DNA from: Ascidia mentula
Taxonomy: Eukaryota; Chordata; Ascidiacea; Phlebobranchia; Ascidiidae
Direction of reading: 5' to 3'
DNA length: 64,000 nucleotides
NCBI GenBank assembly: GCA_947561715.1
Contig: OX387204.1
Span: 8,065,001-8,129,000 of the forward strand
Within the stretch, counting starts at the first letter, position 1, and each line of letters opens with the position of its first letter. Positions 468 to 46,904 of the stretch are shown piece by piece. A program made the position numbers and the translations under genes. The notes beneath the pieces are model-generated. The model was not told where the DNA came from and made no database searches. It saw nothing but the letters and a program-made list of their open reading frames with translations.

Positions 468-3400
468 ATGGATGGTAAAATTAAAGACTGCGATCCGACT
501 CCGTTCATCTCAGCAGGAGTTTTGTCTTTCATTCCATTGCTTCAGGTAAGCCGTTTTTTGCACACTGGTAATAGAATCACTTAATTTGGAAAGAGTTAAA
601 TATTTGCAGCCTATTTGTAAACAGTCTGACCATAACTGTGAGCGTGGTCGGTTGAAACTTTATGTAACTTGTGCTTCATTATGTACAGGCGCTGCTGAAT
701 GGTTTTGTGGGTGTTGCAGCTATTTCAAGTCGAAAGAAACTTGAAAGCAATTTTGTTTACATACATGTGACAAGTTTGTTGTCGGCCAACATGGTCTACG
801 GACTTGTTACCTTCTACAGTTTTTTCTGTAAAGCATTTGGATTGGAGCACAACGGCACACCAACCAATGCTTACGTGTGAGTTTTTACCTATGTTCGTCT
901 ATCTATATGTTCAGTACTAGTGATGCAACGAAACAGCTATTTTTATATTCGGCCGAAACCGAATATTTGGCAAAAGTTGCCGAAATAATACGGGCAAATG
1001 AACCGAAACTAATTTTGGTATTCATCTCTTTAAACGCCAAAAAAATAAACAAAACATGTACTGGATTGGATTGGATCCTATCATACAGCCTTTCATTGGC
1101 GCTTAAAGAATAACCTCGTCTTCTGTACCAACTGCTTAAAAGTTGATTTTTATCATTTCTGTTCAAATAAATAAATGAAACGAACACATTTGCACAGTTT
1201 AAACAATGATTCTTTTAGCTTTTTTAAAAATTGCTTATCAGCGTTATATGCAGTAAAAAAGTTTCGGTTTCGGCCGGATTTTGCAGAAATATTAAGCGCA
1301 ATTGTCATAAGGCGCGACATTAATCCCAGCTGCAAACGCTAAAAAAAGGAATTTAATAGCAATATTGGAAATAACTCCAATGCAAGTAAAATTTTCAACA
1401 TCCTTTGCGCAATGTGTATGTTTTTGAAAATGAAAGCACCTCATATTTGATGTAAGTGACTCCTGGAAAGTTTCTTGCAATCTAATTCGATGCTTGTGAA
1501 TTAATAATGCACTGATAGGTTAAAACACAGTGACTGTCTGGAATTCACTTTTCATTACTAGCTCTATTGATTCGATAGTTATGACTTGTTTTAACAACTC
1601 AAATATTTTCAACAAACCAACTCCGTAACAAATAAACAAAACTGTTTTTATTTAGTATCGGCAGTGGACAGGCCCTGCTTAAAGGGTGGTGGGTATTTCG
1701 GACAGCTTTTCAGATCTCTCTGTTTCTCACGATGAGTGCCAACGTATCAGTTCTAATCTACGCTTTGCGGAAGAGCTCCTACTTTATCCGATCCAGTCAT
1801 CACAGCCGCCGAGGACATATCGCCACGTCAAGTCCAAACAAAACAGTTGTAGGGTTGTTTATTATCGGGTGGATATATGCACCATTTTGATATATAAAGT
1901 ACATTAACGATGTTCTGTATTTAAAAACTGACATTTTTATATTTCATTTGATAACATTACTTGTGGTTAAGGAAGATGTTTAACGTATATGCATTATTAC
2001 ACCCCTCACAACAAAAATATACATAATGGATTTTAATGGATAAAACTCTGCTGTATTTTATTGGTGACATCTTCCGTCTTTCCATGCAGGAAGTAGACCC
2101 ATCAACGCTGAAGGTTAAACGATACCAGGCAATTGGAATCGCCTTTGTGACGTGGTTGTTGCCTTTGACGTTGTCAACGGCAGTATCTACACACTGGAAC
2201 TGCTTGGAGTCATGCATTTGTTACGACGCATATTACCTCGACAAGTTCGCATGTCAAGGAGGTATGACAAAAAAATAACAATTTTTTTATAATATCTTGA
2301 CCGCGGACACCCCTTTAAAGCGCTTTGTTTGTGTGCTTCTTCTTAACCTTACGTGCAACGCGAGTAAAACATTTTGGCGATGCGCGACAGCAATATTCGG
2401 TATTGCAATGACTGGTGTTGTATAAGGCGGCGCTTTGCTTTTACTGAGTGATGATTGTTGGTCGTAGAGTGTACCCGCGAATCTCCCCTTAGCGTTTAAT
2501 TCTGTTGTATTAAAGGCATATATTGTCCAAGGTCAAAAGACACAGCTTCCTGTCACATTTTCGGAAATATTCCCAGTCGTTCCTTTCGATTTCAAGATGT
2601 AGGTTATTATTTGTACTAAGCTTTGGAAATACTTCATTTATACGACACGGAGTTAGCATTGCACTTGGTCTTTTGGTATAGCATAGAAAACAGAATCTAC
2701 AACGGCAAAGCATCAGCTTACGAACATAGCGCAAATGAGAGGAAGCTGTTTACGCTCTATTATTAACTGACATATTTCGCATAGGAAAGCCGGGTTTGAT
2801 TGACGAGCATCCGAATTGAATATTTTACGTGACATAGGGGTTGGCTGGCACCATGCAGCGACGTAACAATTTGAGCTTTGTGCATGTAATCTGTGTTGGT
2901 TGTTACCAAATTTTTGCGCTGTCATGATTATGCTCGTTAATCATGTCAAAGCACATTGTTTTCAGATATCCACCGACATTGCAGCCGAATTATTGAATCG
3001 GCGCCAAACAGCTTTTTGATAACCGTCATAGTATTCTGGATTCTTTTGACTGTGACACTTGTACTGACATTGGTATTTACTTTCCTTCAGTACCGACGTG
3101 CCACTAGCTTTCGGGATGGTGGTGAGTCCTATCCGCATGTCAATGAAGGTTGTTTTTTTGATTTAAACTTGTAAATTTAAAAGAAACGTATTTGAAATAC
3201 TGAAACCTTTTTTCACCGAGTAAAATTTTGTTTAGGACTCCAAGAAATCACAGAAAATGAATCTTTCTCAACCAACGGAGTGGTTGATTTTAAGGTTGTT
3301 GAATTTTACTCGACTGCACGAAAAAGTACTTGGAGCGCATGGATTTAATTTTGACTCGACAATTCTGTCATAAATATGAACAGATTTAGGATCGCTTAAT

Positions 3401-3880
3401 TCGAGTATGTCATAAATATAATGTTGTTCCGCTGCACACTTAGTAGCATCTGTAAATTCGCAAAAAGTCTCAAGGCATAAAAAAACTGCAAATAATTTTA
3501 TGCAGATACAAATCACCAAACCGACTCGGAGAATACCACGCTTTAGCCACAGCATTAAAGCCATGATACTCATCTCCATCATCTTCTTCGTCAGCACAGC
3601 TCCGATCATGATCATAATATTCGTCGACATCGTGGCAGAAACTTACGTTCTCAACACAGCATCTGTAATGATCAGTCTTCTTCTTGTTTATGTGTACGGA
3701 ATAGCAAGTCCCGCTATTCTCATCTATTACATGTACGGCCTTCGTTGTGCGGTAATCAGTCTCCTGCAATCCCTCTCATGCTGCACTAAGACTGTGGTCG
3801 TTAGAGGAAAACGGATGAAGGCTTCTGATAAACGCAAGGTCAAACCACCTGGTCATCCCACAGAAGTTCAAGAAACCTAA
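468..3880 (+). CDS. Seven-transmembrane receptor, array unit 1 (7 exons, 406 aa)
   Basis: Exons: 468-545, 689-876, 1656-1848, 2090-2261, 2966-3121, 3236-3294, 3506-3880. Lengths sum to 1221 bp and all phases close. The product is a divergent rhodopsin-like (class A) receptor of the plasma membrane. TM1 lies at about residues 13-38, TM2 at 49-72, TM3 around 100-122, TM4 with W and P around 161-185, TM5 around 228-252, TM6 around 301-323 and TM7 around 336-360. After TM4 it has a WNC motif and a cysteine-rich second loop, as in lipid-receptor-like groups. The DRY site reads like RKS, CWxP reads STAP, and NPxxY reads SPAIL. The tail carries a CCTKTVVVR motif with possible palmitoylation cysteines. 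The exon 3 donor (gtaggg) and exon 6 donor (gttgtt) are weak but occur in every unit. Intron 2 contains a transposon relic. Ligand is unknown. Confidence 0.8.
918..1290 (+). mobile_element. Degraded hAT-type MITE in intron 2 of unit 1
   Basis: The left terminus TAGTGATGCAACGAAA and the following 350 bases match the complete element at 59376-59794. The other units show the uninterrupted intron at this point, so this is an insertion specific to unit 1. The right terminal repeat is missing and about 90 further bases up to about 1385 are not explained by the other units. The boundary at 1290 is approximate. Confidence 0.75.
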
Positions 3881-4377: not shown

Positions 4378-4803
4378 GCATGTTATTTTTAAAATCAAAT
4401 TTACAGTTGTATTGTTTTTCGTCGGGTGTTTTGGTGAAGAAATGTTGTTTCGCATCTTAAATGTGTGTATTAAACGTTGGCAATAAAAAAGTATAATAGC
4501 TATCGAAATATGTAGCCATCGGCTTGTACAATACACGCCTGGCCGGTGACTGATCTGCATTACGTAGATATCATTAGGCATGACATTTTGGAAACCCCTT
4601 CAGAAACAGGAAGTGGACGCTTTTTATAGCAATTCTCACTCATGGATATTGCGAAACCATTCACAAAATATAAAGGCAAGCCCACGACTAATCAACCGAA
4701 ACTTGAATGCCACAACAAAAATAACCATTGGCGTTGTGGTGATTCATCTTATACGGGTTTGGAATAACTACATAAAACAGATCAAGTAATTGCACAAGAC
4801 TAC

Positions 4804-6103
4804 AATGGATGGTAAAAGCAAAGACTGCGATCCGACTCCGTTTTGCTTTACCTATGAACATCAATTGTTTCGTTCAAGTTCAAGTTTAAGTTCTGTGTTG
4901 TAACATGAATAACTTTCTGCCTTCGAAAGTGCCGATTTACCTTCTGTGGTATACCACCGATCTACAGATGAGCTTAATATAGAACTAACGAACCACTCAT
5001 TAAGTTTTCTGTGGTGACAAAATATACATATTAAATATGATAATTTCGTCGTTGTAAAGGATATTATCGTTAACGATATTGACTTTTCTTTCCTAAGCAA
5101 CTTTGTCAGGGTTAATATAGTGATTTAAATTTTAAATCAAATTTACAGTTGTATTGTTTTTCCGTGGGGTGTCACCAACGAGCAAAATTTTCAACGGCTG
5201 TTCAATTTCTTAAATTAGAGTCAAGTCATTTCAACAAAAAGATAATAACGTTTCTCCTGTTTCCCCTCAGATTGAGGTAATTTGTATGGGCATATATTTA
5301 AGACTTTAACAACAGTAGCCTGCATAACATTAACTGTGTTGCAAATTCCCTGTGGTGAAAGTGATAAGTTTGCTATCAAAGAATCACGAGACTCCGGATA
5401 AATGGTTATGGAGCAAGGTTTTAGTAGCACAAGCTGAGAAAAAAATATCTCAACGACGTTTAGACAATAAGACAAAAAAGATATGAGCGAAAGAGCCCTA
5501 CTTATCGAGGAGAGCTGTTTCGACGTACAAGGGCTCATCAGTGCAGATGGTGGCTGTAACACTGGACAGGCGTTTAAACTAGCATGTACGTTAATTTTAA
5601 CTTTGTTCAACCTTTCAGTCAATTTTGATCCGTTGGGTACCCAACTGGGTACCAAACAACAGAGACGAAGCATTGTGGAGCGCGGTATTGATGAAGAAAA
5701 GCTAGTGTAACATCAAAAGTCAATTTGCAAATTTATTCTAAATTGTTTACCTTCATAAAGGCGGCGCTTTACACTGCTAAACAAGATTTCTCGATTGAGT
5801 CACAGCATCAAGTCCATGATCCTCATCTCCATTCTCTTCATCGTCTGCTCAGCTCCGGCCATGATCACAATATTCGTCGACATAGTGGCAGATGAGTACG
5901 TTCTCAAAATGGAAACTGTGGTATTTGGTGTCCTGGTCGTGTACGTATATGGAAGGCAGTCCCGTTGTTCTCGTTTACTACATGTACGGACTACGTTACG
6001 CGGTTATCAGCATCCTGCAAGCTTTCTCGTGCTGCACGAAGACTGTGGTTGTACGGGGAAGCACCAGTGGAAGTCGTGGAGACCTGTCGAATCCGTGAAG
6101 TAA
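4804..6103 (+). pseudogene. Array unit 2: chimeric receptor remnant
   Basis: Exon 1 starts normally at 4804 but is cut after about 39 bases. The sequence continues directly with 3'-flank DNA like that after unit 5 (about 18055 onward), so exons 2-6 are gone. After a block shared with 18390-18930 there is an isolated, diverged exon 7 (about 5790-6103). It keeps TM6, TM7 and the CCTKTVVVR tail, but a frameshift near 5955 separates the TM6 half from the TM7 half. It cannot encode a receptor. The exon 7 remnant is more diverged than the other units, so it is older or derives from another subfamily. Confidence 0.8.
5165..5705. repeat. Block X, copy 1 (paired with 18390-18930)
   Basis: This roughly 540-bp segment is highly similar to 18390-18930, and both begin at the same point of the receptor 3' flank. 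The minus strand here holds an unrecognised 150-codon open frame (5221-5673). The matching frame in the other copy is broken, which argues against a conserved protein at least there. It may be an old repeat or the end of another gene carried along by duplication. Confidence 0.65.
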
Positions 6104-6920: not shown

Positions 6921-9873
6921 ATGGATGGTAAAAGCAAAGACTGCGATCCGACTCCGTTCATCACAATAGGAGTTCTCTCTTTCATTCCATTGCTTCAGGT
7001 AATCCGTTATTTGCACACTGGTAATAGAATCACTTAATTTGGAAAGAGTAAAATATTTGCAGCCTATTTGTAAACAGTCTGACCATAACTGTGAGCGTGG
7101 TCCGTTGAAACTTAATGTAACTTGTGCTTCATTATGTACAGGCGCTGCTGAATGGTTTTGTGGGTGTTGCAGCTATTTCAAGTCGAAAGAAACTTGAAAG
7201 CAATTTTGTTTACATACATGTGACAAGTTTGTTGTCGGCCAACATGGTCCACGGACTTGTTTCCTGCTACAATTTTCTCTGTAAAGCGTTTGGATTGGAA
7301 CACAACGGCACACCAACCAACACTTACGTGTGAGTTTTCATCTAGGTTCGTCTGTCTATGTGTTCAGTACCAGTCGTTTAAATTTTTTTCAATATATTTA
7401 GCACAAAAATCTGTAAAATTTTCAACATCCTTTGCGCAATGTGTATGATTCAAAAATGAAAGCACATCATATTTGATGTAAGTGAGTCCTGGGAAGTTTC
7501 TTGCAATCTAATTCCATGCTTGTATATTGATCATGTACTGAATGGTTAAATTGACTCTATTGCTTCGATAGTTATGACTTGTTTTAACAACTCAAATATT
7601 TTCAACAAACTAACTCCGTAACAAATAAACAAAATTGTTTTTATTTAGCATCGGCAGTGGACAGGCCGTGCTTGAAAGGTGGTGGGTATTTCGGACAGAT
7701 CTCTCTGTTTCTCACGATGAGTGCCAACGTATCAGTTCTTATCTACGCTTTGCGGAAGAGCTCCTACTTTATCCGATCCAGTCATCATAGCCGCCGAGGA
7801 CACATCGCCACGTCAAGTCCAGATAAAACAATTGTAGGGTTGTTTATTATCGGGTGGATATATGCACCATTTTTATATAAAAAGTATATTTACGATGTTC
7901 TGTATTTAAAAACTGACATTTTTATATTTCATTTGATAACATTACTTGTGGTTGAGGAAGAAATTGTACCTATGTGCAAAATTATACTCCACGCAACAAA
8001 AATACATTTAGTGGATTTCAATGGAAAAACTCTGCTGTATTTTATTGGTAACATCTTCCGCCTTTCCACGCAGGAAGTAGACCCATCAACGCTGAAGGTT
8101 AAACGATACCAGGCAATTGGGATCGCCATTGTGACGTGGTTGTTGCCTTTGATGTTGTCAGCGGTAGTATCTACACACTGGAACTGCTTGGAGTCATGCA
8201 TTTATTACGACGCAATTTACCTCGACAAGTTCGCATGTCAAGGAGGCATGACAAAAAAACAACAAGTCTGATCTGTTTATTCTTAACCTTACGTGCAACA
8301 TGAGTAAAACATTTTGGCGTTAGGCGCGACAGCAATATTCGGTATTGCAATGGAAGGTGTAGTATAAGGCGGCGCTTCACTGTTACTGAGTGATGATAGT
8401 TAGTTGTAGAGTGTACCCGTGAATCTTCCCTTAGCGTTAAAGTCTGTTGTATTAAAGGCATATAGCATTAAGGTTAAAATACCCAGCTTCCGTCAAATTT
8501 TTCGGAAATATTCCCAGTCGTTCCTTCTGATTTCAATATGTAGCTGATTACTTGTATTAATGGAAAGCTCTAGACAGGGTGTGTACACGCACTGTTTCGA
8601 CCTGTAAGGTGTACTAAGCTTTGGACATACACCAATTTAGACGTCACGGAGTTAGCATTGCACTGGGTCTATTGGTATAGCATAGAAAACAGAATCTACA
8701 ACGACAAAGCATCAGCTTACGAACACAGCGCAAAGGAGAGGAAGCTGTTAACGCTCTATGGACTGCCACATTTAGCATGGGAAAGCAGGGTTTGATTGAC
8801 GAGCATCCGAATTGAATATTTTACATGACATATGGGTTGGCTGGCACCAGTGACGTACCAATGTAAGCTTTGTGCATTTAATTTAGGATGGTTGTTACAA
8901 AATAATTACACTATCGTGATTATGCTCGTTAATCATGTCAAAGCACATTGTTTTCAGATATCCACCGACATTGCAGCCGACTTATTGAATCTGCGCCAAA
9001 CAGCTTCTTGATAACTGTCATAATATCCTGGATTCTTTTGACTGTGGCACTTGTACTGACATTGGTATTTACATTCCTTCAGTACCGACGTGCCACTAGC
9101 TTTCGGGATGCTGGTGAGTCCTATCCGCATGTCAATGAAGGTTGTTTTCTTGATTTAAACTTGTGAATTAAAAAGAAACCTATTCAAAATAATGAAACCT
9201 TTTTTAACCGAGTAAGAATTTTGTTTAGGTTTTCAAGAAATCACAGAAAATGAATCTTTCTCAACCAACGGAGTGGTTGATTTTAAGGTTGTTGAATTGT
9301 ACTGGACTGCACACAAAAATACTTGGAGCGCATGGATTTAATTTTGACTCTACAATTCTGTTATAAATTTGAACAGATTTAGGATCGCTTAATGCGAGTA
9401 TGTCATAACTATAATGTTGTTCCGCTACACTCTTAATAGCATCTGTAAATTCGCAAAGAATTCTCCAGGCGTGAACAAACTGCAAATAATTTTATGCAGA
9501 CACAAACCACCAAACCGACTCGGAGAATACCACGCTTTAGCCACAGCATTAAAGCCATGATCCTCATCTCCATACTCTTCATCATCAGCACAGCTCCAGT
9601 CATAATCACAATATTCGTGGACATCGTGACAGAAACTTACGTTCCTAACACAGCATCTGTAATTTTCAGTTTTTTGTTGTTTATGTGTACGGAATGGCAA
9701 GTCCCGCTATTCTCATCTACTACATGTACGGCCTTCGTTGTGCGGTAATCAGTCTCCTGCAATCCCTCTCATGCTGCACTAAGACTGTGGTCGTTAGAGG
9801 AAAACAGATGAAGGCTTCTGACAAACGCAAGGACAAACCACCTGGTCATCCCACAGAAGTTCACGAAACCTAA
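6921..9873 (+). pseudogene. Array unit 3: frameshifted receptor pseudogene
   Basis: All seven exons are present at 6921-6998, 7142-7329, 7649-7833, 8074-8245, 8958-9113, 9229-9287 and 9500-9873. Exon 3 is 185 bp instead of 193 because eight bases before TM3 are deleted. Exon 7 is 374 bp instead of 375, with one base lost before TM7. Each deletion shifts the frame. The intron 4 donor has also changed from GT to GC. Outside these lesions it is very close to units 1, 4 and 5, so inactivation is recent. An open frame at 7657-8271 runs through exon 3, intron 3 and exon 4, but it reads exon 3 in a shifted frame at its start and is probably fortuitous. Confidence 0.88.
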
Positions 9874-10390: not shown

Positions 10391-10396
10391 AATAAA
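10391..10396 (+). terminator. Polyadenylation signal AATAAA, unit 3
   Basis: Same hexamer and spacing after the stop as in units 1, 4 and 5. Confidence 0.45.
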
Positions 10397-10819: not shown

Positions 10820-13800
10820 ATGGATGGTAAAAGCAAAGACTGCGATCCGACTCCGTTCATCGCAATAGGAGTTCTCTCTTTCATTCCATTACTTCAGGTA
10901 ATCCGTTATTTGCACACTGGTAATAGAATCATTAATTTGGAAAGAGTAAAATATTTGCAGCCTATTTGTAAACAGTCTGACCATAACTGTGAGCGTGGTC
11001 CGTTCAAACTTAATGTAACTTGTGCTTCATTATGTACAGGCGCTGCTGAATGGTTTTGTGGGTGTTGCAGCTATTTCAAGTCGGAAGAAGCTTGAAAGCA
11101 ATTTTGTTTACATACATGTGACAAGTTTGTTGTCGGCCAACATGGTCCACGGACTTGTTTCCTGCTACAATTTTCTCTGTAAAGCGTTTGGATTGGAACA
11201 CAACGGCACACCAACCAATACTTACGTGTGAGTTTACATCTAGGTTCGTCTGTCTATGTGTTCATTACCAGTCGTCTAAAATTGTTTCAATATCTTTAAC
11301 TCAAAAAATTGTAAAACTTTTAACATCCTTTGCGCCATGTGTATGATTCAAAAATGAAAGCACCTCATATTTGATGTATAAGTGAGTCCTGGGAAGTTTC
11401 TTGCAATCTAATTCCATGCTTGTGAATTAATAATGCACTGATAGGTTAAAACAGTATTTTTCAACCTTTTTGAACCACGGAACACCATTTTTATTAAAAT
11501 AATCTTGCGGAACACCAAATTGTTGGAAGTACTGTGCCGCAATGCACTTAACCAGCAACAGGCTTGCGCAATTAACAATAGAACATTCAACATTGAAACA
11601 GATGATAGTGGATGATTATTTCATAAAAAAAAAGATTATCGACCCGTGTTCTACGGAACATCAGTCAAACCAATAAATTTCTTGCGGAACACCTGGGGAT
11701 CTTTCACGGAGCACTGGGGTTCCGCGGAACACAGGTTGAAAATCACTGGGTTAAAACACTGTGACTGTCTGGAGTTCACTTTTCATTATTGGCTCTATTG
11801 CTTCGATAGTTATGACTTGTTTTAATAACTCAAATATTTTCAACAAACGAACTCCGTAACAAATAAACAAAATTGTTCTTATTTAGTATCGGCAGTGGAC
11901 AGGCCGTGCTTAAAGGGTGGTGGGTATTTCGGACAGCTTTCCAGATCTCTCTGTTTCTCACGATGAGTGCCAACGTATCAGTTCTTATATACGCTTTGCG
12001 GAAGAGCTCCTACTTTATTCGATCCAGTCATCATAGCCGCCGAGGACACATCGCCACGTCAAGTCCAGATAAAACAATTGTAGGGTTGTTCGTTATCGTT
12101 TGGATATATGCACCATTTTGTCATAAAAAGTATATTAACGATGTCCGTATTCAAAAACTGACATTTTTATATTTCATTTGATAACATTACTTGTGGTTAA
12201 GGAAGAAATTATACCTATGTGCAAAATTATACTCCACGCAAAAAAATACATTTAGTGGATTTTAATAGATAAAACATTTCTGCATTTTATTGGTGACATC
12301 TTCCGCCTTTCCATGCAGGAAGTAGACCCATCAACGCTGAAGGTCAAACGATACCAGGCAATTGGAATCGCCATTGTGACGTGGTTGTTGCCTCTTTCGT
12401 TGTCAACGGTAGTATCTACACACTGGAATTGCTTGGAGTCATGCATTTGTTACGACGCAATTTACCTCGACAAGTTCGCATGTCAAGGAGGTATGACAAA
12501 AAATTAACAATTTTTTTTAAATATCTTCACTGCGGACACCCCTTTAAAGCGCTTTGTTTGTGTGCTTCTTAACCTTACGTGCAACATGAGTAAAACATTT
12601 TGGCGATGGGCGACAGCTATTTTCGGTACTGCAATGGCTGGTGTAGTATAAGGCGGCATTCATTTTTATTGAGTGATGATAGTTAGTTGTAGTGTCCACC
12701 CGTGAATCTCCCCTTAGCGTTTAATTCTGTTGTGTTAAATAAGGGCATATATTGTCCAAGGTTAAAAGACACAGCTTCCAGTCAACTTTTTTCGGAAATA
12801 TTCCCGGTCTTTCTTTCCGATTTCAAAATGTAGCTGATTACTTGTACTTAGTTTCCGAAATACATCAATTTATACGTCACGGAGTTAGCATTGCACTGAG
12901 TCTTTTGGTATAGCATAGAAAACAGAATCTACAACGGCAAAGCATCAGCTTACGAACATAGCGCAAATGAGAGGAAGCTGTTTACGCTCTATTATTAACT
13001 GACATATTGCCCATAGGAAAGCAGGGTTTGATTGACGAGCATCCGAATTCAATATTTTACGTAACACAGGGGTTAGCTGGCACCAGTGACCCAACAATTT
13101 GAGCTTTGTGCAAAATTATTGCACTATTATGATTATGCTCGTTAATCATACAAAAGCACTTTGTTTTCAGATATCCACCGACATTGCAGCCGAATTATAG
13201 AAAGTGCGCCAAACAGCTTCTTGATAACTGTCATAATATTCTGGATTCTTTTGACTGTGGCACTTGTACTGACATTGGTATTTACTTTCCTTCAGTACCG
13301 ACGTGCCACTAGCTTTCGGGATGCTGGTGAGTCCTATCCGCATGTCAATGAAGGTTGTTTTCTTGATTTAAACTTGTAAATTTAAAAGAAGCCTAATTGA
13401 AATGCTGAAACCTTTTTTCACTGCATAAGAATTTTGTTCAGATCTTCAAGAAATCACAGACAATGAATCTTTCTCAACCAACAGAGTGGTTGATTTTAAG
13501 GTTGTTAAATTTTACTGGATTGCACAAAAAAATACTTAAAGCGCATGGATTTAATTTTGACTCTACAATTCTGTTATAAATTTAAAAAAATTAGAATCGC
13601 TTAATGCGAGTATGTCATAAATATAATGTTGTTCCCCTGCACACTTAATAGCTTCTGTAAATTCGCAAAAAAAATCTCGAGGCGTCAAAAAACTGCAAAT
13701 AATTTTATGCAGATACAAACCACCAAACCGACTCGGAGAATACCACGCTTTAGCCACAGCATTAAAGCCATGATCCTCATCTCAATCCTCTTCATCGTCA

Positions 13801-14087
13801 GCACAACTCCGGCCATAATTACAATATTCGTCGACATCATGGCAGAGACTTACGCTCGCAACACGGCATCTGCAACGTTCAGTTTTCTTCTTGTTTATGT
13901 GTACGGAATAACAAGTCCCGCTATTCTCATCTATTACATGTACGGCCTTCGTTGTGCGGTAATCAGTCTCCTGCAATCCCTCTCATGCTGCACTAAGACT
14001 GTGGTCGTTAGAGGAAAACGGACAAGGGCTTCCGATAAACGCAAGGACAAACCACCTGGTCATCCCACAGAAGTTCAAGAAATCTAA
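10820..14087 (+). CDS. Seven-transmembrane receptor, array unit 4 (7 exons, 406 aa)
   Basis: Exons: 10820-10897, 11040-11227, 11887-12079, 12319-12490, 13171-13326, 13442-13500, 13713-14087. Total is 1221 bp and exon lengths are identical to unit 1. The architecture is the same divergent class A receptor with RKS at the DRY site, STTP in TM6 and SPAIL in TM7, ending in the CCTKTVVVR tail and a basic, Pro-rich C-terminus. Differences from unit 1 lie mostly in TM1 (IAIG rather than ISAG), the exon 6 linker and TM6-TM7. Intron 2 carries a clean transposon insertion (11452-11748). No coding lesion is seen, so the gene is probably functional. Confidence 0.82.
11452..11748. mobile_element. hAT-type MITE with intact target duplication, unit 4 intron 2
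   Basis: Terminal inverted repeats are CAGTATTTTTCAACCT at the left and, read inward from the right, CAGTGATTTTCAACCT. The element is flanked by a perfect 8-bp duplication GGTTAAAA (11444-11451 and 11749-11756). Unit 1 shows the empty site with one GGTTAAAA. At 297 bp with no open frame, it is a non-autonomous hAT element that landed after the units separated. Confidence 0.92.
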
Positions 14088-22431: not shown

Positions 22432-22480
22432 TTTGACCACACCGGGATTTGTACCCAGGATATCCTGGGCACGAATCGCC
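22432..22480 (-). mobile_element. tRNA-like SINE fragment (B-box end)
   Basis: On the minus strand this contains a T-arm-like GGGTACAAATCCCGGTGTGG, related to the better copies at 26690, 56110 and 56180. Only the B-box end is recognisable. Confidence 0.5.
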
Positions 22481-22775
22481 AATGTGTCTTCCCTTATATA
22501 CGGTCTGCGGGAGAGTTCGTATTTTGTCGGACCTGGTGCAGCAGCAGTGCCCAAAATCACAGCAGCAGCAGTTCCCAGGATCTTAATACAATTGCAAATT
22601 GCATTAAAGAGGACGTCGCATTTTAGAAAGTTCCACCGGGTTCGGAATATATCTGCTGAACAATTCGGCTTTTCGCTTTATGCAAATATGTCCCGGAAAT
22701 GGCAGACGGCCACAACGTATTTTTGGCAATCTGCGCAAGTAATCGAAATGTCTGTCCCGTTTACCTGTAATTAAT
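22478..22775 (+). pseudogene. Scrambled fragments of the second receptor gene
   Basis: 22478-22555 encodes NVSSLIYGLRESSYFVGP, the end of TM3 in exon 3 of the 19570 gene. 22621-22775 matches intron 6 sequence of that gene (21205-21360). Neither has its neighbouring exons. It is a rearranged partial duplication and cannot make a receptor. Confidence 0.75.
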
Positions 22776-22789
22776 GTCCCAGATTGCAC

Positions 22790-23175: not shown

Positions 23176-23224
23176 TTCGGTTATTCTCTAGTCCTGTAGC
23201 AAAAATGGGCACAAAACGAATTTA

Positions 23225-29381: not shown

Positions 29382-29989
29382 TACTCTTTAGAAACCAGAA
29401 GTAAGCAACCTGCAAAATTGTAATTGTTTCTTCTGATATCTGGACTGCCTGTTCAATAACGCAGTACGTTGATACTAATTCAATAATTGTTGCATTGCCA
29501 CGTAGGCTGCTAATACCTAGGGACAATTAAACAGGATGTTTCGCCCCTACAGTATTATTTCCGTGATTCATACCCGTATTGTAATAATGCAGCTATAAGC
29601 ACGTTGAAAACACGAGCTAACGCTATTGACATTATGGCTGGATTTAAAATTGCCCCGACAAACTTGGAGACAAGATTGTAAAAGCGCAATACGATTTAGG
29701 ATAAAGAATAAAACAAATATTTCAAATTTTAAAAATATATTTTCAACTAGTTAACCACCACAGACATACATAAAGCGAACATTACCATTTACTTTTGACA
29801 CGTTGCCTTTACTCGGGAAGAACGAAGGATTTTTTGGCGAGGGGAATCTATCTATTGATATTTTGTATTGCTCGGTCTGTGATACTTTTTAGGTGTAGCG
29901 CCGTGTGAATCTGAACGGTTGAATGTGGTATATTGTGGTGTCAAAAATAAAGTATGTCGTCTTCCAGCAGGTGGGAGTTTTTTGCGGGA

Positions 29990-31010
29990 TGTTTAACAAT
30001 ATACAACAGTTTATAGGTCAGTGATACAATTTTAAACATACAAGAAAGGCTACAAAATATTGCGGGTTAATTGCAGCAGACGTGGTGAGAAATTAGTTAA
30101 TGGACCGTGTGGTGCCAAAAGTCGGCCCTAATTGGCCGCCACTCCCAATGTTATCCCCAGTCGCAAGGATCTATGTTATATTTACCTTCACCACATTTCA
30201 GACACAAGATGACAAGGCTGAAGACAACGTGGAGATCACCTACTGTAATTCTGCAAGGCTTAACTACACCATACGCCTGATGCTGGTTATATCAGTGCTG
30301 TTTGTGGTATGTTCCCTTCCAACCATCATTATAATGGTGCTCGACTTTGCATCGGAAATTCACATCGACGCGAACGCAGCTACTATAAACTACGTCCTAA
30401 GCCTCTTCTATTGCATCGTAACGCCCGTGTTGCTGGTAGTGTATATGCCAAGCTTGAGACAGGCAGTCATCGACCTTTTGCACTTGTGCACATGTTGTAC
30501 GACCACTGTGGTTCGAAGCGGGGATACCCCTAATCACGTCACTTCCAACTAGTGCATACCGGCAATTTTTTGTGTCTTTTTTTTGCAAACACCACACACA
30601 ATAACTTGCACCCACAGAAGAAAGTTACGAAACATACTGCAAAGTTTTCACACTGCTGTGGTAAATATAGATGTGACCGTTGAATGTGTTCGTGATCAAA
30701 GCTTTTCAACTTACTTTCAAACAAATCCGTATTTTTTCTATATCAAGCACTTGATTCCGACCAGGTTTGGGCTTCAGTAACACGACTCGTACGTAACCAC
30801 TGAATTGGAATATATATTAACTTTTAAATGAAAAATGTAAAAGCCAAACTATGAAGTTGGTGGTCAACATGTTTTGCAGATGTTTCGAAAACAATTTGGA
30901 TCTTGCAAGGTTGTTAAGCTGCGAAATTTGCATACACTTAGATTAAATTAGCGTCTGATCTTGAACGTAAATTCAAGGCCATTAGGATACAAACATATTA
31001 TGCAGACCTT
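29990..31010 (+). repeat. Segmental duplication, copy 2
   Basis: Partner of 21380-22330, including the sequence before exon 7 and the 3' flank. Low divergence in the exon suggests a recent event or gene conversion. Confidence 0.8.
30202..30552 (+). pseudogene. Orphan duplicate of receptor exon 7
   Basis: This stretch is almost identical to exon 7 of the 19570-21921 gene, keeps its acceptor and full frame (TM6, TM7, CCTTTVVR tail, stop), and is flanked by the same duplicated DNA. No exons 1-6 of this type are visible upstream. The nearest upstream receptor exons belong to the 19570 gene, with the minus-strand protease homologue between. It is therefore an isolated exon, unless it serves as a distant alternative last exon. 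Confidence 0.75.
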
Positions 31011-33164: not shown

Positions 33165-36100
33165 ATGAATGCGACAATTGGATGGAATGTTACTTGCAAC
33201 CCACAAATAAGCAGGACTTCGGCCTACTTTGCTGTTGTACCAGCTGTACAGGTATGTATTTGTGTGTTTACTGACCAAGAAAACGTATACCATTTGTTTT
33301 ACTTAAAACGTATGCATTCAGAAATAACCGTGCGTAACAATTGCTTTCTTAATTTTAGTTAAATGTTGAGAGATTGAAGACTGTATAGTTTTCCACCGAA
33401 CGATTATTAGAACTTGAAATCGAATCATTCTGTTAATGTTTGGTTTTAAACTTACAATAACTGACATATTTATTTCATTTATTTATTTATTTATTCATTT
33501 TGCCTCACCAACACAAGTTTAAACACATTATATTTGAGCAAATACCAAGGTTAAGGATGTGAAGGTATGTAAGGTTATATATCAACAGTTAAAGTATCCA
33601 ACAATAAGAGAAATACACAAACATGTTGATTAATTAATTAACTCGTTGAATTACTACTATCAATCCCACAACAGTTGCTTTGTTTTGTTGCTGTTTATGT
33701 AAGCGGTCATTATGTATTTAACGAGTAGAATTATTGTGGCAACAGAGAGACATATGACTATTACAAACATACATTAAACACTCAAAAAATCAATTTAACG
33801 AAACAACCATTTGCGTGTTTCGTTTATTATTTGTTGGCAAAGTTGCAAAAGGTTTATTTACTTACAGGTGATTATAAACGCGGTAATTGCGATAGCCGCT
33901 TTACGACATAGATCTAAGCTGCGAAACAACTTTGTTTACGCTTACGTAATCAGCCTTATGGTGGCCAACGTCGTTTTTGGCATTTTCTCGATTCTTGGCC
34001 TCGTAAGCAGGGGACTAGCGATTGAAGCTATTTACCATCCAGTCGAGACGCACAAGTAAGTCGGATTTGGGAATGTATTTGCGTAATATCCCGACGTTTA
34101 ATTTGCATCAACGATTTGATTTCTTTTGTTCTCTCGTCGGAATCGAAAAGTTATTTCGACGTTTAGCATTAGCATGCAATCCGCTATTGTCCGACAAAAC
34201 ATCGAAAGTTTTGTAACTTGAAGAGTAACGGAAACGCAAAATATAATATTGCAGTATTTAATTAATATAAACAATGTTGCAACGTAATGTAACCAATGCA
34301 AGAGGGTTTAACTTTAAAACGGAATTTGAGATCATGCTTTACATCAAACCACAGTCGGAATTGATTTTTATTAAACTTTTTTAAGGTTTTTGTTAAGCGT
34401 CCACAGCATAGCAAAAACACCTCCATCTTACAGAATCCTCCACGGCGACCCGAGCCACGAGCATCTGAAACGGTGGTGGGCGTTCCGCTCCAGTTTTAAT
34501 ATTTGCATCTACCTGGTAATGAGTTCCAGCGTGTCTTCGTTGATCTACGGAATTCGCGAAAGCAGCTACTTCATCGGGCCAGGCGTTCGAAGACGTAGAC
34601 TGGCCAGCGACAGCAGCAGTGTGAGTACTCGCAAAAGTAAGGTTTTGCACGTCAGCCAAAACCACCGCGTGTCAACGGATATGTCACGTCATCTCTGTTG
34701 ATAATAAATCGCTGATATAAGTGGCTCACCTGTTTTAAGTTAGTGACAAACAGCACGTTCTAGTTGAGTTTCCGGTCAAGGAACGAATATAGTTATAGGA
34801 CCTTAAGCAGAGGGGCTAACTAGACTCAGATCGGGCCATGCTTTTAGGGTCGGGTTCGTTCTTAAATCTGAAATAAAAACACTGGATCGGGGCCTAATAC
34901 TTACCTTGTCACTTTTGCGTAATAAGTACACTTTCCTTACACTAATGTACATGCGGTAATGTCATTCACGTAACTCCTTATTCAGAGATTCAACCTTGCT
35001 ACTTCACAACTGCTTGAAATAATTGCTTGCAGTCTGTAATTTTGGCGCCGTAATTACACTTTCGTGCCTGATTTAGGGTTCAAATAAAGTTAGGGTTTGG
35101 CCCTGGATCAAATCTGGAACAAACACATATATGGGCACTACGCTGGTGTTTGATGCCGAAATAGCATAAATTTATCATTTCTTCGGGTACTTTTACCCTA
35201 TTTAGAAGCGTATAGCGATAATTTGTTTTTTTAGACTCGTCGGTGTGTCTAAAACGTCTTCCGCAGCGCTATATTACTAACCATCCGTATGTGCTAAAAT
35301 AAGCACGATTAGACGACAAAAACAAAGCACGCAACTCCAAAATAAGCACATTGGTATTTTCGGAGACACATGAAAATAAACACTAGTCATCTTAGAAATA
35401 AGCACAGTGTGACAAATTAAAGTTGATTTTGCTCACAGGAAAACTCGACCAGACTCAAAAGAAACATAGCTTTTTTTCTCATTGCGGTTGGTTGGGTTGG
35501 ACCTTTTGTCTTATCGATTGCTGCAGTGGCGGGGTGGAACTGTGGCGGAACATGCAGCTGCTTCTCTGGTTACTACGGACAATCTGTCAATCTTTGTCAT
35601 AGCGGTAAGAACGCGCACTCGATGATATATGTCACGTTTGAAAACCACAACATGTTCCAAAGTCATGCGCAATGGTTTCGGCGTTTCGGTTCTCATCTAA
35701 AAACAGCTCAGGCCACCAGTGCACAACAGCAAACAGTGATGAGTGCCATTTTTGTGGTTTACCATCTGTCGCGTTCCAAACATATATGTGTTTATTTGTA
35801 ATGTTTGAAACCAAGTGTTTCTGATTACCGTCAGTCGGTTAATTCGTTTATTTCGGTAATTGTGTTTATTTCTTTTAGGGGTGATGTCTCAAACCATGTT
35901 TACAAGAAAGGTTTCAAAAATTAACTTTAATTGTTGAATCTAAACAACATACAATTAAGGAATATATTTTCTTACATTCTTGATAAAAACCAGCCCGCGT
36001 ATCACTTTTGGAACGATTGTCGTGCCCTGTGTTGTTTACCCCAGGCTAAGACAGACCAGAAACTACATTGTAGTTTCGCACCATTGTAAACGCAAAATAT

Positions 36101-38336
36101 GACACCAGAAATTTTAGTCCATGCTAAAAAACAATAACCGCAAACAATGAGACGAAACAACGAGGTGTATCAAAGCAAGAGCTATCGACAAGCACAAGTA
36201 GAATAAATACTCAAACAGTACACACCGACATTACATTTTATAATCCGTCGATTTATCGTGTAACTTGTATGGAATGCATTGGCCACTTTCAAAGCAAAAT
36301 CTTAAAACCCGACCGGTCTGGTACCGATCCATGAGCCATTAGTTACCAGGAAGTACAATAACAATCCATTATTTAAATGTTTTCCGATTTATTGTTTAGA
36401 TTGAGTTAGCGGTGAAATATTAGGCTATTGACTCGGAAACTATTTTGCGTAAAGGCAATTTTTGTACGTGCACTAAACGTTCTATGCACTATTTATGTTG
36501 CTCTTTTTTGTCAAACCGTTTTAATGCAGAAGAGGTTTGATTACCTTTAAAGTGATTTGCAACTCAGGATTATTGGCGCATGCTGGCAACTGAGACCTAC
36601 ATGAAAACATGGCATAATGGCTCCTATGCCCACTTCTTGCAAAAAACGCAAATTCTGTAAATTAATGTTAAGAATAAAATGACTCGAAAATAACGAAGCA
36701 TGGGATGTATTATTTCTGTTCTTATTTTAGACGTCCTGATACATTGCTCTGGTCTCCACCCACCATTATCTCAATCATTCGTCGTTACGTGCATCGTTTT
36801 GTGGTTTGTTCTGACGTTCGGGATCTTGCTGATTCTTTCCTTAACCGTCAGAAAATATCGGCAAATCACGAAGCCGTCCACCACGGCCACAGTAACACAC
36901 AGACCTTCCCGTATGTAAATGTTGTCGTTATTAATACCCCCGAGAACAACGTTTGTGGTAGTGGAACTGTATTGTGTCATTTCACAGAAATTAATTCACC
37001 AAACGACTCTGCATCGGAAAATGAGAATCCGAACAACAACCTGGAAGCCATAAAGGTACGTTGCGTGTTATGAGATATGACAAATCATATCTAGTTTTGG
37101 GTATTATATTTTGATATGCACGCCAATCACTATAATGGTCTAACGTATAACATTAAGTAAACACAGTCCAAGTGAATGTCTGTAACAATCAAGTTTATAC
37201 GACACACAAGCAATGATACCAATTACTTCACGAACACCTCACAGGTATATAAACGTATTAATAGACTGGTGTCGACAACCCCTGCATGGCACGAGAGCTA
37301 TATGGTTGGCACGGTTGGTTATTATTAATGACACGCCAAGTGATTTATCAGCTCATATTCGAGCACTGTTTATGTAAAAACCTAAGCTACACTCAAAAAT
37401 GTTGGCACTCAAAGTCATTAACAAAGGTACGTTACGTGTTATGAGATGTGACGAATCATATCTATATAGTTTCTAAATATTATCACTACAATGGTCTAAA
37501 GTAAGAAAAAGTAACCACAGTCCAAGTTAATGTGTAACATTACGTGTGTTCCTTGTGCAACTTCCTTGTGGTACAAAGCTACACATGGCTTTAATTATGA
37601 CTAGCTGTTCAGATTAATAGCACAAACAAGCATAGTAGTCAAACATTCTGCGAATGCCAATTTGCACACGAGACATTTCGTTGACAAAATCACCCTGACC
37701 CTCTTTGAGTAAAACGACAATAGGGGTAAATACTTAGGGCGGATTTTCATAGAAAGACGTGACAGAATATCACGAAAATTCACAGAAGATTTCCCTTAAA
37801 ATTTTTTTTTTCTTTTCTTCATATCGTAAGTTGCTGCTAGTGGTACCGTAAAAATATGATTTGACAAAGGCTGTTTAGCGTTTACTGGAACGAAAAGTTA
37901 CATCTAATTCGACCAAGTATGTTTAAAGCCACCAGCCCTTTAAAAAATTTTTTTTAAATTTCAGCCGAAGAAAACTTCGTGGAAGCGAAGTGTCGTGCGA
38001 TGTCTCAAATTCCGCAATTACAATGTGACAATTAAGTTGATGCTCCTCATTTCCCTGCTATTTGTACTCGGCTCCGCGCCAACCATTGTGGTTATCATTA
38101 TCGACGTTGCATCGAATGGACAGGAAATTCCACTTGCCCTGGTGTTGAGCGCCTACGCCATTTCGATGTTCTACTGCATTATTTCGCCCCTTATTCTGTG
38201 CTACTATATGTCGGGTCTTCGCGCAGCTGTCGTAAACCTTTTTACTACGTGCTGCACCAAGACGGTTGTACGCAGACCAAGCATGCAACCAAACTTACAC
38301 ATCTCTTTAAATTCGCGCGATTTGGCCAATAATTAG
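33165..38336 (+). CDS. Seven-transmembrane receptor, third locus (7 exons, 415 aa)
   Basis: Exons: 33165-33251, 33868-34055, 34434-34620, 35439-35604, 36731-36910, 36988-37055, 37965-38336. Total is 1248 bp. Intron phases are as in the array genes, but introns are longer. N-glycosylation sites NAT and NVT lie in the short N-terminus. TM1 contains Asn (IINAVIAIAAL), TM2 has MVANVVFG with Asn in place of the usual Asp, TM4 has GWVGP, and the loop has GWNC and CSC. TM3 ends RESSYFIGP, TM6 has GSAP, TM7 has SPLIL, and the tail is CCTKTVVRR. Clear splice signals make this the best-supported receptor model. Ligand and G-protein coupling are unknown. Confidence 0.85.
37051..37180 (+). repeat. Duplicated intron 6 start, copy 1
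   Basis: The exon 6 donor and about 120 bases of intron 6 recur at 37424-37550 in the same orientation, including the donor AAAGGTACGT. A transposon-like sequence lies between the copies. Confidence 0.75.
37254..37427 (+). mobile_element. hAT-like MITE fragment in intron 6 of the third receptor
   Basis: This is highly similar over its length to 39856-40023 and related to 60705-60848. It begins with CTGGTGTCG-type sequence resembling a degraded CAGGGGTCG hAT terminus. The far end is missing here. Confidence 0.55.
37424..37550 (+). repeat. Duplicated intron 6 start, copy 2
   Basis: Second copy of 37051-37180 with a preserved GTACGT donor-like site but no exon coding sequence before it. Confidence 0.75.
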
Positions 38337-42756: not shown

Positions 42757-45700
42757 TCAGGATTTAGTGAAACGTAGCAGTAGGCGATTTGTCGCTTGCT
42801 TTAAATCGGACAAATACTTTACCAAAAACAGCGGGCAACTGAAAACATGAACAAATACAGCAGCATAAGATAAATATATGATGACAGGGTTCAAAAACTG
42901 GTCGTCGGGCATTACCAAATCACACAACGCTACAATGGCAAAGGGGAGTGTGCTTAGAGTCACCGACGCCGAAAGAACTATGACAAGCTTGAGTGACGGA
43001 CTGAGGGAAGATGGTCGTTGCCCTGGTTGCTGAAAGTAAGACATAATTGTTTAAAATATTACTTAGTATGTTATCACTGTACGTTTAGACACGCTGTTCC
43101 CAAAACATTTGCTGTTTACCGCTAGATCTTCAGGCAAATCAGTAGTTGTGGACAGGGTCTCCGATCTACGGTTTGTTTCTATTTCAGACGCCACAGGAAG
43201 CGACGTGTCAGTTGTGCTGACAGGCTCTTCGAAAATCGTGGATAGTCGTGGCCGGTCAATCACGTCCTCTCCAAAATCTGATTCTGTGCAATATATTCTG
43301 TAATTACTGGACCGGGTCTGCACAACTACAAACAGCACACGAGCCACAATAAAAAAATGTACATGTCACGTGTGAAAACAAAAAAATTATTATGCATAAA
43401 TGTCTACCAGGCCACATGTTGTGCAAGCCTATAGTACAAGATTATCGAGGTCATTTTTGCTCCCAAAACTTCACAAATTTTCTACGCGTGAAAAGAGACT
43501 ACATATTGACAATGTTCACCCAATGGTCGGAACGACTGCATCCTTCCTTGGCGAATAGCTGCGTGATGCAACGTCATGTCACGTGGGATCATTGGACGGT
43601 TGGGGATGGTAACATTTTTGAATGCAATGTGATGTCTTGCGAACTGTGAGCTCCTGAAAGTCCAGTATAACCATGAGAAAATGCATTTATATATACACTT
43701 TCTGATTTAATACGATTACCATTGATAGGATCTGATGCTTCGGACAAGCATAAAAATAAGAATGGTAGACTGAACAATCCAAATCCCGAGAAACAAGACG
43801 AGGAAACTTCCGGACATTGGCAACCATTCTTGGGAGCACCGATACATTTCTGAGTCTGTGGGAGAAGGAGGCAAATTAAAAACACATCACAATAACGCAT
43901 AGGAACATAACTTTATTTTATAGATAGAAGGCTCTAAATCAGACTTCAGCTGCAAGTAAATTTGTGGTTGTAAATTTTGTGGGGTTTTGCGTCCGCACAG
44001 GTAAGAACTATAAAACAAACAAACAAACAAACCTGTTTTAGGAACAGTGCATTGTAGCTCGTGGTAGGTCGCTGGAAGGCAATTGCAAACATCGAGACAG
44101 TTCCATGAAAAGGTGGATAAAAGCGAGCAAGCAGCCGGAAGGAGCCATGACGCACCGACGATAATGTATGCCTGGGATCTTCGAAACTGTCGCGAAAGAA
44201 AATTTAATTTGCATAGAGAAAAGAACTGGTATCATTTTATTACTTATACATTTGATAAACTTATAGCATAACATAACTAAGATGTTACTTTTGACAAAGT
44301 TAAAGCATGTTTTTCTCGAATGCTCGCTTAACATTGCTTTGTAAGATATAATCGAAAAGACTGCTAATCACCTACAAGGGTTTTTGGTGGCGTGTTTTGG
44401 GTTCCAATGTTTGCAAGGCTGCCGAAAATATTGTGGAAAGACATCGACATACTTCTGCTGCTCACGCGGGAGCTGTGTGAAAATGTGGTGAGAAAAGTGC
44501 GCTGTTTCAGACCGTAGGTAAGGCCAATGACGCTGTTTTCCATCACAAACAACATGCACAGGGTGAAGGATTTGCGAAAGGTCCACCACATCATTATCGA
44601 TCGGTGAGCTGGGTTTTCTTCGTCATATCTGAAACGTTTTCAAAATCAACTGTGTAATTACACAAATGTGAAACGTCTTGTATGAGATGCTGTTTTGGTT
44701 CAGCAAGGATATATTTCGATACTATAGTTTATAATATGAAATTATACAGGTGGAACCAAGCCTTTACAATAAAAATCATTCAACGCAAACAATGCGTGAC
44801 CGCGATTTTCCACTGATGGCGCAACTCTGATAAATTTTCGTGACACATCACGTATCATGAACAGCAGAACCCAAGGTACGCATAGTTTTATGTACATTTA
44901 GGAATGAGACGATTGTTCAAAACCGATGGGTTCAAAAAATGCACCTAATGATATTAAATCTAAACACTGTATACAGTCATTTAAGGATAATATTTACTAG
45001 AAGTTAACATGTATGTTTTTATCGTTTCCTTGCTATATCGTTTTTTACAATTTAACATCAAAGGCAACCAAAGTAGAATCGCGTTCCCCTTATTGCTGTC
45101 GCCATTTTTGTCTGCGCCTTTGTCAGTCGTTGCGGTTACTTCATTCATAAAATTAAAGTTATTGAAGTTTTGAGCTCGTATGTCTGTGAGGGGAACTGCA
45201 GTGCTTTTACCAATTGTTTAACTATGTCTGGATTTTCATTACATTTAGTTGTTAAGGCTATAGTTAGTATTAGTTTGGGAAAACTATCACATTAAGATCC
45301 TGAGTAGTTTCAGATGATTTTGTACATATCAAAACAAAAGGGCTTGAATTTTAAGGAAAAACAACTTTTTACAAAATACACTTGTTCGCGTGTAAATTAC
45401 TGATCTATGGAACGATGGTCATAGCAGGAAAAATATGTCCATATTTTGAACTGTGCACAGACATGTGATGCTGTGTTATTTTGATAGGGGCAAAAATAAT
45501 AACAGGTGTCACAAAATAGTTGATCATAGATGCCAGCAATTACCGTCTACAACGACCAAATGAATTGATATCGCAAATTTACTTCATGCATGACATATGT
45601 CCATATTTCGAACTGTGCACAGACATGTGACGCTGTGTTCTTTTGACACAAGCCACGTTAGACACGCCAATCCACAAGCAAGGTGGGCCAGTTTGGGAGT

Positions 45701-46904
45701 GCGACGCCATCGATTTAAACCAACTATAGTTGTCAACACAAACAATGTATGTTTGCGCTAAGAGTGGGCCGTGCAGATCTATTTTCAACCCCGCACAAAT
45801 AACATAACATCCTTCACGTCACATTCTAATGACAAGTAGAGTCACATCTTAATTTACGCAGCGACTACATATGTAAAGAGAGCTAATGTTTTATGTCAAA
45901 CAAAAAAATTTTAATATGATAGTAAACACGTGCTTGAATAACCACCCACTGACAGAACTATTCCAGCTGATGTGATTGACGCATAGTATACGTTCCATAG
46001 CGGTAATTTATTAAAATAGTTTTTCTTACAAAACTATTGGCTCCAAAGGTAGGTTACATCCATATATATTGGCTTACCGATTTGGATTTTCGCTTCCATC
46101 GCGAGTCGGTCGTTCGAAAACAAGGGCAAAGTTGAGCATTGTGTAAGCAACAAAAACTCCGAACACAATGTTGCAAAGCAATGTGTTTTTCACGTAAATG
46201 TATACGCTGTTGAGACGACTCAACCTCTGCCGGAAACATATGATGGCCAACAGTGGAACAGCGTTGACAAAAATCTGAAGGAGAATTGTGAGTTGAAAGC
46301 AGCACTCTTATTTTTTATATCAGTGGTTCCCAACCCATCTTTTCCTACAACAACTCTACGTAATTTGTAAACATTTCCCAGCAACCATAAGCGGCAAACC
46401 AACAAGCGACTACCGCACATCAGCCTTTCTCATCTCATTCCTAATGAGGTTATAGTAGCACAATAAAAGTGTGCCCTGGAGATAGCATTACTGGCAAATC
46501 CAATATAACATTACCGTATAAACCGAATGGTGAAAAGTTACCTGAGTGAATATAAAAAAGCCCGAGGCACCCCTGAAGGTTACAAATGGCACTCGGTTAG
46601 GAACCATTGTCATAAAATTTTCTCATATGACAACACAACAAATCTACATATACGGTATATAAATACATAGTCGTCGCTGAGAAGAAACACAGGACATGGC
46701 GTTGTCGTTTACCAGCAGCTCAACCCAGACCAAGCGCAGTGCCATAGTGACTTAAAAATCCTTCGACATTTTAGCTAGATTTATTGTATACCAACCATTT
46801 GAGAACATGTTTATAACACAAACAAGTACCTGTAATATCGGTAGAATAAATGCAACACCACTTAGTATCTGGTATGCTGGCTCACATTGTACAGTGTTAT
46901 TCAT
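42757..46904 (-). CDS. Seven-transmembrane receptor, fourth locus (7 exons, 438 aa)
   Basis: Exons in coding order: 46830-46904, 46078-46274, 44376-44628, 44033-44186, 43720-43855, 43078-43306, 42757-43029. Total is 1317 bp. Exon order and junction positions follow the other receptors, except that intron 5 is phase 2 rather than 1 and the exon 6 linker is long (77 codons, Ser/Thr-rich third intracellular loop). TM4 ends FSWNC followed by CNC. TM2 has NIVFGVF, TM6 has STLP, and TM7 has CPLFL in place of NPxxY. The tail is short (LLLRFTKS) and lacks the CCTKTVVR motif. The exon 6 acceptor at 43306 was chosen because the better-looking AG at 43317 breaks the frame. It is the most diverged member and is inverted relative to the others. 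Confidence 0.76.
45430..45645 (+). repeat. Direct repeat of about 50 bp in intron 2 of the fourth receptor
   Basis: ATATGTCCATATTTTGAACT and the following 32 bases at about 45435-45485 recur at 45596-45647 with a few changes. The 110-base spacer is unrelated. No coding role is seen. Confidence 0.75.
46321..46609. mobile_element. hAT-type MITE, intron 1 of the fourth receptor
   Basis: The left end is CAGTGGTTCCCAACC. The right end GGTTAGGAACCATTG is its inverted repeat with two changes. The internal right half matches 55668-55913. No clear target duplication remains. Confidence 0.8.

Follow-up and report, generated by a model that had tools for sequence, protein, structure and literature searches.

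We describe a family of divergent seven-transmembrane receptor genes in the tunicate Ascidia mentula. Several of them lie in a 64 kb stretch of DNA (C72:8065001-8129000, below called the window), and the others were found in the same genome (195.8 Mb in 79 contigs). The mitochondrial code agrees with a tunicate: COX1, on the 19.5 kb contig C79, requires TGA for Trp, and at least ten of its 18 AGA/AGG codons, which ascidian table 13 translates as glycine, stand at glycines that are conserved in COX1. Gene models in the window were obtained by a splice-aware reading of the DNA combined with the conservation between paralogues. The window contains six full-length receptor genes (A1, A3, A4, B, C and D), together with one pseudogene (A2) and two relics, one A-type and one B-type. 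A preliminary description of this DNA, made without database searches, listed four loci. A1, B, C and D are real and had been placed at the right coordinates, but the count was too low, as A3 and A4 are also full-length and A2 and the relics had been missed. In window positions, the six genes are:

468..3880, plus strand: receptor gene A1, 406 amino acids, with an open spliced frame, GT-AG introns and paralogue conservation; ATG at 468, exons 468-545, 689-876, 1656-1848, 2090-2261, 2966-3121, 3236-3294, 3506-3880 (stop included).
10820..14087, plus strand: receptor gene A3, 406 amino acids; exons 10820-10897, 11040-11227, 11887-12079, 12319-12490, 13171-13326, 13442-13500, 13713-14087.
14953..17882, plus strand: receptor gene A4, 406 amino acids; exons 14953-15030, 15175-15362, 15631-15823, 16066-16237, 16994-17149, 17236-17294, 17508-17882.
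19570..21921, plus strand: receptor gene B, 388 amino acids; exons 19570-19647, 19710-19882, 20087-20258, 20390-20564, 20624-20788, 21028-21080 (weak), 21571-21921.
33165..38336, plus strand: receptor gene C, 415 amino acids; exons 33165-33251, 33868-34055, 34434-34620, 35439-35604, 36731-36910, 36988-37055, 37965-38336.
42757..46904, minus strand: receptor gene D, 394 amino acids; exons 46830-46904, 46078-46274, 44466-44628, 44033-44186, 43720-43855, 43120-43306 (weak acceptor), 42757-43029.

All six genes consist of seven coding exons separated by GT-AG introns and have a single open frame of 388-415 codons. The intron phases after exons 1-6 are 0, 2, 0, 1, 1 and 0, and five of the six positions have the same phase in all genes; the exception is D, with phase 2 after exon 5. 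The models are weak at exon 6 of B and, in D, at the junction of exons 5 and 6. In A1, B, C and D, exon 4 carries the fourth transmembrane helix (TM4) and the WNC loop, and exon 7 carries TM6-TM7, both as first described. Exon 1 ends in general in Leu/Val-Gln, as also proposed, but B ends in Ile-Gln and A4 in Phe-Gln. The A, B, C and D proteins are pairwise 24-40% identical (BLASTP E-values between about 1e-23 and 1e-95). Despite identities of 26-33%, A1 matches D with 3e-30 and C with 7e-59, far beyond chance.

A1 has two full-length tandem copies, A3 and A4, with proteins that are 90-92% identical. The damaged copies, with the relic exons located by blastn (for the A-type relic, A3 exons against the window), are:

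4790..6060, plus strand: A-type relic, with a piece of exon 1 and its upstream flank at 4790-4842 and an exon-7-like stretch, 75% identical, at 5792-6060.
6921..9873, plus strand: A2, a pseudogene copy of A1, with a net 8-nt deletion in exon 3, a frameshift in exon 7 and a GC donor in place of GT after exon 4.
22477..30552, plus strand: relic of a B duplicate, with part of exon 3 at 22477-22555 (90% identical) and the whole of exon 7 at 30202-30552 (97%).

The frame of exon 7 in the B relic is open, with six amino acid changes, and blastn found none of the remaining B exons; from its sequence we take this isolated copy to be a recent partial duplication.

Eleven further family loci lie outside the window. 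Searching the genome with the D, C and F4 proteins gave 31, 59 and 27 matches, respectively, and led to one set of loci:

C72, just upstream of the window: A0.
C72:8.007-8.015 Mb: three genes, F8-F10.
C72, near 1.0 Mb and near 4.97 Mb: F2 and F3, respectively.
C52: three loci, F4-F6.
C1: F1 and F7.

Their exons were read one at a time, which gives partial models. In A0 there are counterparts of exons 1-5 and 7, and exon 6 was not found by this reading. In F1 one exon encodes the part that begins inside TM3 and extends to the C terminus, and introns 1 and 4 seem to be missing from F2 and F4-F6. The common exon plan put forward in the preliminary description holds for A1, B, C and D, but a seven-exon plan for the entire family is rejected. 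F7 (L055), with an apparent frameshift in TM3, was excluded from every count. On another contig, a weak match of 35 amino acids to the WNC exon of gene C (C73:8392989-8393093, minus strand, E 0.001) may mark a further relative.

Judged by their sequences, these proteins are class A receptors. Activation in class A is taught as resting on a set of nearly invariant switch residues, and we compared these in 13 non-redundant members, omitting A1, A4 and F10 as near-copies and F7 and A2 as damaged. The register of positions 2.50, 3.49-3.51, 6.47-6.50 and 7.49-7.53 was taken from a profile alignment to CB1. All 13 members have the class A backbone anchors N1.50, W4.50, P6.50 and P7.50, and all have D6.58. 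The class A motifs D2.50, D/ERY, CWxP and NPxxY are absent from these 13 members, save for Arg 3.50 in gene D. Position 2.50 is Asn in 12 members and His in one, while D2.50 itself is found in none. At 3.39 there is Asn (11/13) or Ser (2/13), and at 3.50 Ser in 11, Thr in one and Arg in one, gene D. Trp 6.48 is replaced in every member, by Thr in eight, Ser in three and Phe in two. In TM7, position 7.45 is Tyr (10/13), Phe (2/13) or His (1/13), Asn 7.49 has given way to Ser (6/13), Cys (6/13) or Thr (1/13), and Tyr 7.53 to Leu (12/13) or Val (1/13). According to the part of a bitter-receptor study available to us, the sodium pocket is formed by D2.50, S3.39, N7.45 and N7.49 (PMC10695916); in the family it is changed at three positions in all 13 members and at 3.39 in 11.

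The preliminary description had read the DRY site as RKS or RES, which is one residue early; the alignment to CB1 gives KSS in A, ESS in B and C and QRT in D for 3.49-3.51. It was thus also wrong to count DRY as lost in all four loci, since D retains the arginine. Its TM7 counterparts of NPxxY, namely SPAIL in A, TPVLL in B, SPLIL in C and CPLFL in D, are correct, and so is the loss of Trp with retention of Pro in TM6 of all four. It did not mention that D2.50 is changed to Asn, that the sodium pocket is altered or that there are additional cysteines, described below. Mis-modelled exons were rejected as a source of the motif losses, as the motif residues of the tabulated members lie inside contiguous open exon stretches.

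Neglect of the switch positions is unlikely because the replacing residues are themselves conserved. This bears on the idea of a relaxed, decaying family, where the motifs would be gone as function fades. The broken A2, the A and B relics and the apparent frameshift in F7 fit such decay, and so does the ratio of nonsynonymous to synonymous substitution rates (dN/dS) among the young copies A1, A3 and A4, which is 0.51-0.58 (Fisher p 0.012, 0.073 and 0.016), i.e. a weak constraint. However, comparison of these three genes with A0 gives a dN/dS of 0.16-0.17 over 344 codons, at a dS of 1.7-1.8, near saturation, and the selection on the A lineage is purifying. Together with the open frames of the six window genes and the constancy of N2.50 (12/13), L7.53 (12/13) and D6.58 (13/13), this makes decay the least probable of the explanations considered here.

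Conservation among the 13 members is highest in intracellular loop 1 (ICL1, 0.51), inner TM2 (0.46), helix 8 and the tail (0.40), inner TM7 (0.39) and inner TM3 (0.38). It is lowest in extracellular loop 3 (0.07), outer TM7 (0.15) and extracellular loop 1 (0.18). The parts that usually contact the G protein are also poorly conserved, with 0.19 for ICL3, 0.22 for inner TM5, 0.27 for ICL2 and 0.28 for inner TM6.

Such a pattern could be expected of atypical, G-protein-silent receptors that bind a ligand and act by scavenging it, by recruiting arrestin or by modulating a conventional partner, in the manner of C5aR2 and the atypical chemokine receptors. These belong to another class A branch and are not known to form an expanded family. 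As far as the accessible text of one report goes, C5aR2 has an Arg-to-Leu change in DRY and an altered NPxxY, and has lost G-protein signalling while still recruiting arrestin (PMC10235453); the family resembles it in both kinds of change, as 12 of the 13 members have another residue than Arg at 3.50 and none has an unaltered NPxxY. Possible partners can be seen in the conventional receptors of this genome described below, whose loop is similar. On the other hand, inner TM7 and helix 8 are among the conserved regions, and the precedent of the bitter receptors indicates that motif loss need not silence a receptor. Decoy receptors are moreover usually few, whereas here we find an expanded family with tandem copies. 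We consider a G-protein-silent role somewhat unlikely, though it is the strongest of the alternatives.

In the MECA lipid and cannabinoid subgroup the second extracellular loop has the form WNC...CSxxxP, which is visible in CB1 in the profile alignment. The six modelled window genes have an invariant N-terminal cysteine and five invariant cysteines in this loop (WNC-x3-C-x-C...C...CS). Among 16 aligned members the loop starts with WNC in 13, WSC in F2, LSC in F4 and LNC in F5, and CS precedes TM5 in all 16. The proline stands as in CSxxxP in seven, one residue later in five, and is absent from four (A0, A1, A3 and A4). The loop disulphide of vertebrate lipid receptors links the WNC and CS cysteines; the extra cysteines of the family suggest two further disulphide bonds. 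The lipid receptors are also not known to have a cysteine at 3.25. The top of TM3 in the window genes reads WW.FR or similar instead of the usual cysteine, and a cysteine at the aligned position is lacking in ten of the 13 members; F4, F5 and F6 do have one, unlike the lipid receptors, which speaks against an unmixed lipid-receptor signature.

The preliminary description had likened the WNC loop to that of MECA-type lipid receptors, and comparison with solved structures supports this. With a profile of the six genes, CB1, S1P3, S1P5 and GPR6 fill the best 23 of 31 matches in PDB (E up to 0.39), and chemokine, vasopressin and motilin receptors appear after them. A ten-member profile gives 126 matches, and among the best 60 of these CB1 (1.5e-8), S1P3 (1.6e-7), S1P1 (1.5e-6) and S1P5 (5.6e-6) lead. 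They are followed by 5-HT1A (7.3e-6) and A2A (8.5e-6), just ahead of LPA1 (1.4e-5), with opioid receptors lower. The nearest solved structures are thus CB1 and S1P receptors with both profiles, and matches this distant, within the structures in PDB, are consistent with there being no close vertebrate orthologue.

Apart from WNC at the top of TM4 and the second cysteine (CS) before TM5, the family is similar to the cannabinoid, S1P and LPA receptors (MECA or EDG-CNR, class A alpha) in the missing TM3 cysteine of ten members, and to CB1 in the TM6 proline followed by Asp at 6.58. It differs from them by the replaced D2.50, Arg 3.50 (12/13), Trp 6.48, Asn 7.49 and Tyr 7.53, by the extra cysteines in the loop and N terminus, by Cys 3.25 in F4-F6 and by its multi-exon genes.

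A search of the genome with a stretch of CB1 (E up to 0.01) gave 45 places, with 130 of 194 candidates scored. None of them lies in the family loci, and the expectation that family members would be among CB1's genome matches was rejected. The search did provide four conventional receptors (L060, L062, L064 and L067); L062, used as a query in turn, brought up a fifth, L072. In all five the loop carries WNC or WSC and extra cysteines; the exact WxC-x3-C-x-C is found in L062, L067 and L072, and variants of it in L060 and L064. An N-terminal cysteine was seen in L062, L064 and L067. These receptors are alike to the family in the cysteine-rich second loop and N-terminal cysteine, but keep the conventional switches where these were found: D2.50 in five of five (that of L067 on an upstream exon assumed to belong to the same gene), Arg 3.50 in all four for which this part of TM3 was found (the exon of L060 stops at DR) and NPxxY in all three with TM7 found. 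Trp 6.48 is present in one of the three seen, L060; the same receptor has D6.58, which is missing in L062 and L067. The other two of these three have lost the tryptophan:

C52:19370255-19371870: L062, cysteine-rich WNC loop, DRY and NPxxY intact, Thr at 6.48.
C69:8214270-8217512: L067, cysteine-rich WNC loop, NPxxY intact, Thr at 6.48; DRY part not seen.

With Trp 6.48 gone and D2.50 and NPxxY kept, L062 and L067 possibly represent an intermediate state, or else a separate loss. Dense arrays of other matches to the Pfam domain 7tm_1 occur elsewhere in the genome, at C72:13689428-13728456 and C69:808400-912429.

A tree of 26 rows places the 16 family members in a single clade (support 100/100) whose stem measures 2.5 changes per column. 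This agrees with the earlier proposal that the joint loss of motifs goes back to one lineage. The next to join the family are three conventional loop receptors (88/84), followed by all five (80/70), before CB1, which is the one vertebrate receptor in the tree. These joining branches and the long branches around them make the exact placement weak. The approximately unbiased (AU) test rejects neither a family outside the conventional receptors and CB1 (p 0.27) nor the five conventional rows as one clade (p 0.31), and because of this the nesting of the family within the conventional group is suggested rather than shown.

The family might be derived from another class A branch, its WNC loop being MECA-like by convergence or through long-branch effects. 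The AU result and the stem of 2.5 leave room for this, as do the absence of family members from the 45 CB1 matches, Cys at 3.25 in F4-F6 and the matches of 5-HT1A and opioid receptors to the profile. In Pfam, B is the sole protein of the six modelled in the window with a listed 7tm_1 match (35.6 bits, cut-off 30.5), and none is listed for the other nine of the ten family members scanned. Against an origin outside MECA, CB1 and S1P receptors top both profiles, the TM3 cysteine is missing from ten of 13 members, and CB1 has the WNC/CS loop and D6.58 too. Such an origin is unlikely. Because of the similar cysteine-rich second extracellular loop and N-terminal cysteine, the family probably descended from MECA-like receptors that persist in the same genome.

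The reading we prefer is that of functional class A receptors with a re-wired activation core, forming a MECA-related clade in this tunicate genome; we give it a probability of roughly 0.45. By parsimony rather than by reconstruction, the sodium pocket and the Arg/Tyr relay would have been swapped before the radiation of the family for N2.50, N3.39, S3.50, T/S6.48, Y7.45, S/C/T7.49 and L7.53. The new set would then have been largely retained, with the backbone prolines, N1.50, W4.50 and D6.58 unchanged throughout. A small, perhaps lipid-like ligand may still bind beneath the lid formed by the loop, and the signal could pass through a packing core of TM3, TM6 and TM7 that works without sodium ions, Arg 3.50 or Tyr 7.53, possibly as in the bitter receptors with HPFIL. 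The data show the family, its degree of relationship, the replacements and the selection; the ligand class, the coupling and any chemosensory use are what we infer from these comparisons. We favour a re-wired core over G-protein-silent receptors because the family is expanded, the inner parts of TM3, TM7 and helix 8 are conserved and the outer face is variable. Several of the results above weigh against it: the arginine retained in D, the weak constraint among the young A copies, the poor conservation of the usual G-protein contacts, the precedent of C5aR2, Cys 3.25 in F4-F6, and the AU test, branch supports and long branches.

The common replacement of the switch with constraint elsewhere would also suit an obligate partner, as the preliminary description had suggested, i.e. 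a seven-transmembrane subunit that works only alongside another receptor or channel. No candidate is found among the neighbours in the window, the only place looked, and a receptor repertoire accounts better for the diversity and the tandem expansion; we regard an obligate partner as very unlikely. The neighbours are:

51172-51522, minus strand: exon of the RNA polymerase II subunit Rpb4 (POLR2D), Pfam 7.9e-25.
53640-54390, plus strand: exons of a CAF1/CNOT7-type deadenylase; Pfam 6e-5 for 53640-53963, weak and under the cut-off, and the remainder presumably of the same type.
58051-63585, plus strand: gene of the Hsp70 superfamily, Pfam HSP70 1.5e-11 for 58051-58350, which we take to be Hsp110/HSPA4-like.

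Among known systems, the bitter receptor TAS2R46 offers a comparison for the switches: in the available part of the report, it is without DRY and NPxxY, has HPFIL in TM7 and an activation mode of its own (PMC10695916). HPFIL is comparable to the [SCT]PxxL of the family, e.g. CPFIL in F7. The likeness is likely convergent, judging from the sequences; no Pfam match to TAS2R was found at E up to 1 in the six window proteins or in ten family members. In tunicates, a survey of Ciona lists, in the part we could consult, five MECA receptors, one 'Unclassified EDG/CNR-like' and 23 'Other Rhodopsins', the latter two groups being kept out of the trees as divergent (PMC2396169). Our family may be among such Ciona-type genes, compared here by their description in that part of the survey; they are alike as divergent tunicate class A receptors, one of them near EDG/cannabinoid receptors, while motif replacement and a cysteine-rich loop are not described there. 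Melanocortin-like tunicate receptors have DRY and NPxxY intact, according to the accessible part of PMC11430673. In the open-access literature we found no description of a tunicate receptor family with these replacements, which is no proof of novelty.

A bolder interpretation, which we consider doubtful, is that a chordate class A clade has swapped most of its activation core, i.e. the sodium pocket, the Trp toggle, the DRY arginine and the NPxxY tyrosine, for another conserved one and still signals, giving a tunicate chemoreceptor repertoire derived from lipid receptors as an independent counterpart of the bitter receptors. If true, the route to a receptor free of the textbook switch could be reconstructed step by step via L062 and L067. 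The family could reveal which switches are dispensable and in which order they were lost, and could show how a receptor functions without the textbook switch in a close relative of vertebrates. It may also point to a sensory or immune receptor repertoire of tunicates.

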